Positions 6,744 to 30,011 of a stretch of DNA of 64,000 nucleotides are shown piece after piece. The notes under the pieces are model-generated. The model was not told where the DNA came from and did not search any database. It worked only from the letters and a program-made list of their open reading frames with translations. Origin of the DNA: Candidatus Poribacteria bacterium. GTDB taxonomy: Bacteria; Poribacteria; WGA-4E; WGA-3G. How positions within the stretch are numbered: position 1 is the first letter of the stretch; each line of letters starts with the position of its first letter. Both the position numbers and the translations under genes were made by a program. The DNA is taken from NCBI GenBank assembly GCA_026706025.1, contig JAPOZO010000072.1, positions 62,001 to 126,000 on the forward strand. The letters run 5' to 3'.

Positions 6744-7147
6744 CCTTTTGATTGAGGTTAAGCACAATCAAAGCGCATTTGCTAAAACTCGAAAATTAGA
6801 TTGGACAACACATACCTTTCACCAAGATGTTTATCCATGAATCACATCCGTACCATGTGCTTTGTTTAACCACAGTAGACTAATTTATTTTTCATCTATT
6901 GGAGGCGCGGTTTCTAACCGCGCTCTTCTTTTTTTAAACACTTGCCAAGTAAATTTAGAGAAAACAGTCAGGGTCATTCAATTGTATTTCTCGCAGGCAA
7001 AAATACTAAATATACGTTATGTTTTTTAAAAAATCGCTGAAATTTTCGCTGGATTTCGCTGGATTTCGCTGGATCTCACACCGGATTCTGGAAAAAGGAT
7101 GTCCAATCCAATAATTTCTTAAAATTGAATGGCCCTGGAGAAAACAG
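6744..7147. other. Gene-free gap with terminator and short tandem repeat
   Basis: No coding frame is convincing here. It holds the terminator at 6905-6936 and a triplicated 10-bp unit TTTCGCTGGA at about 7044-7073, just ahead of the transporter promoter. Confidence 0.6.
6905..6936 (+). terminator. Rho-independent terminator (repeat-derived)
   Basis: Perfect 8-bp stem GCGCGGTT / AACCGCGC with a 3-nt loop, followed by a T-rich run. It lies downstream of the sigma/anti-sigma genes. The sequence resembles the GGTGCGATT/AATCGCACC palindromes seen at 14.7 and 29.0 kb. Confidence 0.75.
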
Positions 7148-7176
7148 TTGACACACAACCCTTTTTTCTGTAAAAT
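7148..7176 (+). promoter_or_regulatory. Strong sigma-70 promoter of the peptide transporter genes
   Basis: TTGACA (7148-7153), 17-bp spacer, TAAAAT (7171-7176). The predicted transcript start is near 7183, about 40 nt before the first ATP-binding gene. Confidence 0.8.
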
Positions 7177-14724: not shown

Positions 14725-14836
14725 CCCAGGCCCGGTAGGTGCGATTTCCTAATCGCACCGGATTTTAGGCACAAACCTTACCCAGGCCCGGTAGGTGCGA
14801 TTTCCTAATCGCACCGGATTTTAGGCACAAACCTTA
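14725..14836. repeat. Two tandem 56-bp palindromic (REP-like) units
   Basis: Two near-identical 56-bp copies (14725-14780, 14781-14836). Each contains CCCGGTAGGTGCGATT, a short loop and AATCGCACCGG, followed by TTTTAGGCACAAACCTTA. A related single copy interrupts the end of rsmI at about 28990. The hairpins could also act as a terminator or processing site after the permease gene. Confidence 0.85.
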
Positions 14837-28307: not shown

Positions 28308-29036
28308 ATGCAAAATACGCCATCTGGCACGCTTTACCTTGTTAGCACACCGATCGGAAATTTAGAGGATATTACCCTGCGTGCCCTCCGCATCCTCAAA
28401 GAGGTAGACCTGATCGCTGCTGAAGACACACGTCAAACACGCCGTCTCTTAACGCACTATAACATTCATACCCCTCTCACAAGCTACTTTGAAGGCAACC
28501 AGCAAGTAAAGTGCGACAAACTGATTGAGCGCATGAAAACAGGTGAGACGATTGCCCTCGTTTCAGATGCAGGCACGCCTATCATTTCAGACCCAGGGTA
28601 TCCACTCCTACGTGGCTGTATCACCTCAGAAATCCCTATTGTTCCGATTCCAGGGGTATCAGCAGTTATCACAGCAGCATCCGTTTCTGGGCTCCCGCTG
28701 CATAACTTTACCTTTGAAGGCTTCCTGTCGCCAAAATCCGCAAAAAGAAAGCGGCAATTAAGTGTACTCACTGATGAAGAGAGAACGTTAATCTTTTTTG
28801 AATCTCCGCACCGTTTCTGTCGCTTCCTTGAAGATGTCTTCGAGGTGATGGGTGAACGCGACCTTGTCGTTACACGCGAGTTGACGAAAAAGTTTGAAGA
28901 GATATTCCGGGGGAATGTCAGTGAGGCATTGGAGAAATTTCGAGAGACCGAGCCGCGCGGAGAGTTTACGATCGTTATTGCTGGGAAACGGCCCCCCAGG
29001 CCCGGTAGGTGCGGTTTGGAACCGCACCGGGCTTGA
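28308..29036 (+). CDS. rsmI: 16S rRNA 2'-O-ribose methyltransferase RsmI, C-terminus altered by repeat insertion
   Basis: 242 aa. SAM-dependent methylation of C1402 ribose in 16S rRNA. Family motifs: TLYLVSTPIGNLEDIT at the N-terminus, AAEDTRQTRRLL, ALVSDAGTPIISDPGYPL, PIPGVSAVITA, FFESPHRF, VTRELTKKFEE. The last about 14 residues (KRPPRPGRCGLEPHRA) are encoded by a palindromic repeat inserted between 12-bp direct repeats (28975-28986 and 29049-29060). Removing 74 bp restores an ending RRRKDDS that would overlap the next gene. The enzyme core is unaffected. Confidence 0.93.
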   Translation: MQNTPSGTLYLVSTPIGNLEDITLRALRILKEVDLIAAEDTRQTRRLLTHYNIHTPLTSYFEGNQQVKCDKLIERMKTGETIALVSDAGTPIISDPGYPLLRGCITSEIPIVPIPGVSAVITAASVSGLPLHNFTFEGFLSPKSAKRKRQLSVLTDEERTLIFFESPHRFCRFLEDVFEVMGERDLVVTRELTKKFEEIFRGNVSEALEKFRETEPRGEFTIVIAGKRPPRPGRCGLEPHRA

Positions 29037-29048
29037 AAAAGAAAATTC
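28987..29048. repeat. Palindromic (REP-like) element inside the end of rsmI
   Basis: GGCCCCCCAGGCCCGGTAGG followed by a GGTGCGGTTTGGAACCGCACC hairpin core. It matches the tandem units at 14725-14836 and is flanked by TTATTGCTGGGA on both sides, consistent with a target-site duplication. Confidence 0.85.
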
Positions 29049-29072
29049 TTATTGCTGGGAGAAGGAGAAAAG

Positions 29073-30011
29073 ATGACAGTTGATGGAATAGAACAGATCG
29101 CCGTTATCGGGGCAGGACTCATGGGACACGGCATTGCACAGGAATTCGCATGCGCGGGCTACCGAGTCCTGATGCACGATGTTGCCAACGAACACCTCGA
29201 AACGGCACGCACTCAGATTGAGAACAACCTCGGTGTGCTTGCTGAAAATGGGGTTATCGCCAAAGAGAATATCGCGCCGACGTTACAACGGATTAAGACT
29301 ACCACCGAATTGTCTGCCATCGCCGAAAACGCCGATTTTGTTGTCGAAGCCGTCACCGAGAATTTGGCATTAAAACAGCAGATATTTGAGGAATTAGATA
29401 CAACCTGTCCGTCCCATACAATTTTGGCGAGCAATACGACCGCATTGATGCCCAGCCAGATTGGTGTGAAGGCAAAACGCAAGGGTAAAATCCTCAATAC
29501 TCACTATTTTAATCCGCCTTACCTTATTCCATTGGTCGAACTCATTCGCAGCCCTGATACCTCTGATGAAACGGTTGCAGTGACGTTTGATCTCTTGACG
29601 GCTATCGGGAAAACGCCTGCGATTATTGAAAAAGAGGCACTCGGTTTCGTCGGGCCGAGATTGCAAGCTGCCCTCATTCGGGAAGCATTCGCAATCGTAG
29701 AACAGGGCATCGCCAGTGCAGAGACTGTCGATCTTGTCGTCCGGAATAGCTTTGGACGAAGGCTTAGCGTCGCTGGTCCCTTTCAAGTCTTTGAACTTGC
29801 TGGATGGGACCTTGTGCTTGCCGCCTTTGAAGAACTTTATAAAGACCTCAACAGTTCGGCTGACATCAATCCGCTCCTCCGGCAAATGGTGGAATCCGGT
29901 AAACTCGGTGTAAAGTCTAAGGAAGGTTTCTACAGTTGGACAGATGACAAAATACAGGAACTTCGAGACCGGATGAATCGCGCATTAATACAGCAAGCAA
30001 AAGATATATAA
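29073..30011 (+). CDS. 3-hydroxyacyl-CoA dehydrogenase (3-hydroxybutyryl-CoA dehydrogenase type)
   Basis: 312 aa NAD-dependent dehydrogenase of beta-oxidation or butyrate-type metabolism. Rossmann motif GAGLMG (13-18), acidic residue in VLMHDV, NTTALMPSQIG and the active-site HYFNPPYLIPLVEL, then the all-helical C-terminal domain (GFVGPRLQAALIREA, GKLGVKSKEGFY). Start ATG 29073 with AAGGAG 5 nt upstream; a TTG at 29052 is in frame but inside the duplicated repeat flank. It originally overlapped rsmI. The partner crotonase/thiolase genes are not in the window. Confidence 0.9.
   Translation: MTVDGIEQIAVIGAGLMGHGIAQEFACAGYRVLMHDVANEHLETARTQIENNLGVLAENGVIAKENIAPTLQRIKTTTELSAIAENADFVVEAVTENLALKQQIFEELDTTCPSHTILASNTTALMPSQIGVKAKRKGKILNTHYFNPPYLIPLVELIRSPDTSDETVAVTFDLLTAIGKTPAIIEKEALGFVGPRLQAALIREAFAIVEQGIASAETVDLVVRNSFGRRLSVAGPFQVFELAGWDLVLAAFEELYKDLNSSADINPLLRQMVESGKLGVKSKEGFYSWTDDKIQELRDRMNRALIQQAKDI

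Follow-up and report, generated by a model that had tools for sequence, protein, structure and literature searches.

The end of rsmI in a Candidatus Poribacteria genome has been rewritten by a short insertion, and this insertion, with its target duplication and the new protein tail it supplies, is real in the source lineage. Judged from its sequence, the 57-bp insert is the centre of an ISAs1-type MITE of about 142 bp, whose arms are missing here, and we lean towards the view that this core was copied or captured, without the arms, during DNA repair or replication. How REP-like palindromes arrive at new sites is poorly understood, and the pair of empty and filled sites described here captures a REP-bearing segment in the act of arriving. 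All coordinates (Table 1) refer to the window, which is the whole 64,000-nt stretch of DNA analysed, and G000 denotes the source genome.

Table 1. Features at the junction between rsmI and the downstream gene (window coordinates)
Feature	Position	Strand	Remarks
rsmI, 16S rRNA (cytidine1402-2'-O)-methyltransferase, 242 aa	28308..29036	+	TIGR00096, 255.9 bits, residues 9-229
Target duplication, left copy	28975..28991	+	exact over the first 12 nt; 2 differences over 17 nt
Insert, ISAs1-type MITE core (REP-like hairpin and 16-17 nt of MITE sequence)	28992..29048	+	57 bp; matches in relatives 91-98% over positions 1-57
GTAG tag and REP-like hairpin	29005..29028	+	arms 29008-29016 and 29020-29028
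MITE-specific tail TTGAAAAAGAAAATTC	29033..29048	+	common to full MITE copies; pattern scans
Target duplication, right copy	29049..29065	+	extends into the AAGGAG-type Shine-Dalgarno region of the dehydrogenase-like gene
3-hydroxyacyl-CoA dehydrogenase-like gene	29073..30011	+	NCBIfam matches below cut-off, E to 9.6e-68

RsmI was located in 92 of 97 genomes (the source genome counted), and among the 37 same-genus relatives found, the rsmI loci of 29 were read for the comparison that the initial annotation had proposed. The palindrome is absent in all 29, where RsmI continues directly with tails like IAGKRRKDDS and terminates at, across or close to the start of the next gene. It is also absent at the rsmI end of 40 of 40 Poribacteria loci in a second collection, whose genomes overlap with the first; a conserved motif of the next gene follows the rsmI stop at a distance of 16-26 nt in 23 of these 40 and was not found in five. 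Because the relatives without the insert mostly end RsmI in the ancestral manner at the ATG of the next gene, the event is an insertion. In the source genome (6.27 Mb), the site lies inside a 200-kb contig and the current rsmI stop is at 29034-29036. The insert supplies the last 15 or so residues of RsmI, which fall outside the methyltransferase match, in agreement with the repeat-derived tail described in the initial annotation. Read by eye in the frame of rsmI, the right copy of the duplication encodes I-A-G-R-R-R-K-D-D-S followed by a stop codon (29081-29083) that overlaps the downstream ATG; the initial annotation had reached this ending by deleting 74 bp. The ATG of the dehydrogenase-like gene overlaps or adjoins the rsmI stop in most relatives, and the claimed separation of rsmI from this gene is likewise upheld.

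The two copies of the target were recovered by a repeat search as a direct repeat of 17 nt with 88% identity and a spacing of 74. The exact part, TTATTGCTGGGA, occupies 28975-28986 and 29049-29060 on either side of the GTAG-tagged palindrome, exactly as first described, and a 12-nt match between the 62-nt flanks was obtained in none of 2000 shuffles of the right flank (shuffle maximum, 10). The following AACGG (28987-28991), assigned to the element in the initial annotation, is ancestral target sequence that stands at this place in the near relatives G005, G011, and G029. Because AACGG before 28992 matches the target of these three relatives, the duplication, initially given as about 12 bp, is best read on sequence comparison as one of 17 bp that has since acquired two substitutions. 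The 62-bp palindromic element of the initial annotation is correspondingly reduced to an inserted unit of 57 bp, of which only the central ~33 bp are palindromic. The palindrome itself is GGTGCGGTT-TGG-AACCGCACC at 29008-29028 with a GCCC/GGGC pair outside it, and the hairpin arm begins with the last G of the GTAG tag (29005-29008), which leaves the tag partly paired. The hairpin of the insert gives a z of -3.13 in a single-strand DNA fold, and microhomology at the junctions amounts to at most about 2 nt.

The extent of the insert was defined with a 60-nt query starting at 28992. Since the matches to the core in relatives start at 28992-28994 and end exactly at 29048, the inserted unit is 57 bp long. 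In the loci read, nearly all matches to the 57-bp core sit between the arms CAGGRC..ATTTAGTT and AACTAAAT..CCTG, and the copies bearing the tail are flanked by arms of the type CAGGGCTATTTAGTTCTCGG... and ...AAAACTAAATAGCCCTG. The rsmI copy lacks both inverted-repeat arms and has a core boundary on each side. The best other copies in the source genome are 92% identical over 49 nt, or 89% over positions 4-57, and no near-identical donor was seen there among the best 12 candidates scored. The REP core is also found inside another type of MITE, whose ends resemble ATGAAGTTTAA. With exact patterns, the only other arm-less core with the same tail and ends in 38 genomes is G019:C42, and no clear duplication was seen when this copy was compared with G036 and G003, both of which lack the core at that place.

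A total of 61 distinct ISAs1-type MITE copies were collected, 48 with the REP core and 47 with recognisable TSDs, which are located outside the arms and are 9-11 bp long in 43 of the 47 (12 bp in two). Three full 1347-bp ISs in G005 share the inverted repeat of the MITEs (CAGGGCCATTTAGTTTT) and have 9-10 bp duplications around them, and the transposase, translated from one of the three copies, belongs to the ISAs1 family (NF033564, 211 bits against a cut-off of 70). In a folded MITE the arms pair around the core (z -5.74), and this central core carries the GTAG-tagged REP-like hairpin. The rsmI insert is like these elements in that its 57-bp core occurs within MITEs sharing the IS inverted repeat, but unlike them it has neither arm and a longer duplication. 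Full copies elsewhere have terminal inverted repeats at both ends, which the rsmI copy does not, and instead of a TSD of 9-11 bp directly outside the arms it has its duplication beside the core. The REP thus travels as cargo of ISAs1-type MITEs and can also arrive without the MITE. The window holds one such MITE at 6958-7148, whose inverted repeats are CAGGGTCATTCAATT and AATTGAATGGCCCTG and whose 11-bp target duplication, GAGAAAACAGT, is exact. Contigs C6, C43, C47, C66, C103, C10, and C84 of the source genome break off about 55 nt away from the inverted repeat CAGAGCCATTCAGTTTT, a pattern suggesting that several long identical IS copies broke the assembly.

The initial annotation had taken the insertion as direct evidence that the REP-like element moves with a target duplication of about 12 bp, and had suggested a search for a RAYT-like transposase. 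Such genes are present: three loci of the source genome (L010, L012, and L013) exceed the NCBIfam cut-off for RAYT, and their link to the rsmI copy is a candidate one. Further Y1 loci comprise one fragment below the RAYT cut-off and one plain IS200/IS605 transposase, and REPs adjoin the Y1 genes in L010 and L011. The hairpin resembles GTAG-tagged REPs and the REPtrons formed with RAYT (TnpA_REP) in having GTAG beside a hairpin with a 9-bp stem, a high copy number, and RAYT genes with adjoining REPs at the level of the genome. It differs from them in riding mostly inside MITEs, and REP movement is not known to produce long target duplications.

Duplications are scarce around other copies. Outside MITE arms, REP copies make up 28 rows, some of them on both strands or in two genomes, and rsmI is the only one with a non-tandem flanking repeat score above 7 (three tandem arrays not counted); other copies flanked by 12-bp duplications, for which the initial annotation had proposed a search, did not appear among them. 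A census of short insertions covered 561 sites in 2.27 Mb of sequence surrounding rsmI in 28 genomes; it kept one site per 40 bp and dropped sites with more than four extra bases on the empty side. Ten non-array sites have a duplication score of at least 12, and three of the ten are arm-less palindromic MITE cores, namely rsmI of G000, the rsmI junction of G016, and another G016 site. No non-array duplication of at least 12 accompanies 15 of the 18 arm-less core sites. The enrichment of arm-less cores among the long duplications (3/10 against 18/561, hypergeometric 0.003) is post hoc and no more than a lead; in an earlier and smaller run, which pooled cores with and without arms and had split clusters, the figures were 3/7 and 34/543. 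Of the REP-tagged arm-less insertions with an empty relative, 1/8 (rsmI) has a duplication of at least 12, where the REP tag permits one mismatch and some of the eight are therefore weak matches. A constant duplication at several independent insertions, as expected of a mobile REP that makes TSDs, was not found in this material, and the claim that the element moves with a duplication of about 12 bp is not borne out, the full MITEs having TSDs of 9-11 bp outside their arms. A target duplication beside a REP is not proof of REP transposition.

Several candidates were rejected in the course of the census. In its first version, many apparent long duplications proved to be tandem arrays (GTAGGCACACTCCGTGTGCC and CAGTTATCAGTTATCGG types) and were excluded, and the TTCCCTTA repeat of G006 failed on alignment as a clean duplication. 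The intergenic REP sites G000 14726, G006 55826, G026 31600, and G029 16748 gave no clean empty site, the region being replaced in relatives.

The rsmI junction has been hit a second time, in G016 (L022), where the end of rsmI carries an arm-less CCCCCTTATCAGGGGG palindrome with an imperfect 18-bp duplication (three differences) that takes in the Shine-Dalgarno sequence and the start of the next gene. Elsewhere, the CCCCCTTATCAGGGGG core forms the centre of MITEs whose arms are of the TAGGACTTACGCA type and whose duplications measure about 6 bp, and the G016 insertion is an independent event at the same junction with the core of a different MITE. An arm-less CCCCCTTATCAGGGGG core at G016:C105 (site 23216 of the joined census stretch) is surrounded by a duplication of 42-45 bp. 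The duplications at the three arm-less cores are thus 17, 18, and 45 bp long, yet two A-type cores share their ends.

Template-switch insertions are marked by a copied segment with arbitrary ends, a variable duplication, and short microhomology. At rsmI, a stalled end would switch to the central hairpin domain of a MITE, copy it, and then return to the original strand about 17 bp back; alternatively, a broken end may capture a fragment by Ku-independent joining. Classical end joining is disfavoured because a search of the source genome found no Ku gene. The absence of arms on both sides, a duplication longer than 9-11 bp, and the parallel in G016 all support copying, and this route or capture is favoured because mobility by RAYT, ISAs1-type transposition, and later loss of the arms each fit poorly. 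Several points run counter to the proposed route. Most arm-less core sites have no long duplication, so it would leave one only irregularly; the source genome showed no near-identical donor among the candidates scored; the microhomology at the junctions is slight; the ends shared with G019:C42 mean that the 57 bp could be a unit in its own right; and the exact 12 nt taken alone is close to the range of the MITE TSDs. The wider proposal, that in these Poribacteria MITE hairpin cores are copied arm-less by template switching into the extruded core, with no transposase involved, and that this leaves variable duplications (17, 18, and 45 bp) and has hit the rsmI junction twice, in two species and with two MITE families, strikes us as rather doubtful.

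ISAs1-type transposition of the core is disfavoured because the arms would be required, and we infer that neither an ISAs1-type transposase nor a RAYT performed the insertion. It is unlikely that the REP-like palindrome is itself mobile through RAYT and made the target duplication of about 12 bp (or 17 bp). The RAYT loci of the source genome, the REPs adjoining Y1 genes, and the second arm-less core with the same ends in G019 speak for such mobility, but a long duplication is found in just one of the eight REP-tagged arm-less insertions and one of the 28 rows outside MITE arms, the insert extends past the hairpin by 16-17 nt of MITE sequence, and the G019 copy shows no clear duplication against its empty relatives. 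Moreover, the Y1 transposases of the IS200/IS605 family make no larger target duplications, according to an excerpt of PMC2817692. In E. coli, TnpA_REP cuts at a CT dinucleotide on the 5' or 3' side of the REP (PMC8266576), and in the MITE copies, as read from their sequences, no CT is present at either core boundary. Insertion of a full ISAs1-type MITE with a TSD of 10-12 bp and subsequent deletion of both arms would suit the 12-bp exact part and the TSDs of the full copies, two of which reach 12 bp; it is nevertheless improbable, as two separate deletions would be required, one of them stopping precisely at the duplication, and the AACGG that separates the core from the 12-bp repeat is the ancestral target of three near relatives, which points to a 17-bp duplication and no arm remnant. 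An assembly artefact might be suspected in a single metagenome-assembled draft genome in which the core is repeated and several contigs break off some 55 nt into a related inverted repeat. We regard this as very improbable, as the site lies well within its contig, the insert differs from every other copy found in the source genome, and a misjoin would not produce coherent flanks together with a target duplication that is exact over 12 nt.

The rsmI junction offers a concrete case in which to follow the copying of short palindromes and their effects on protein ends and operon coupling. REPs nested in longer palindromic repeats are known as GTAG-15 dimers in A. variabilis; these are similar to the present arrangement, but in the part of PMC3733652 cited here the palindrome is not tied to an IS family. 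The same paper describes intragenic REPs and Rickettsia palindromic elements as palindromic repeats that supply protein residues, whereas here only the C-terminal end is rewritten and both the empty site and the duplication are visible. In the titles and abstract openings of the literature on Poribacteria repeats, REP/RAYT, MITE/ISAs1, Rickettsia palindromic elements, and bacterial template switching, this arrangement was not recognised. Elsewhere in the window, a REP-like unit lying upstream of a gene occurs twice as an exact 56-bp tandem at 14725-14836; a similar pair stands at this place in G006, and most other relatives have a different sequence. In L246, L247, and the stretches of G005, G004, G007, and G011, the REP hairpin contains a further palindrome within its loop or arm, indicating that repeats insert into repeats.
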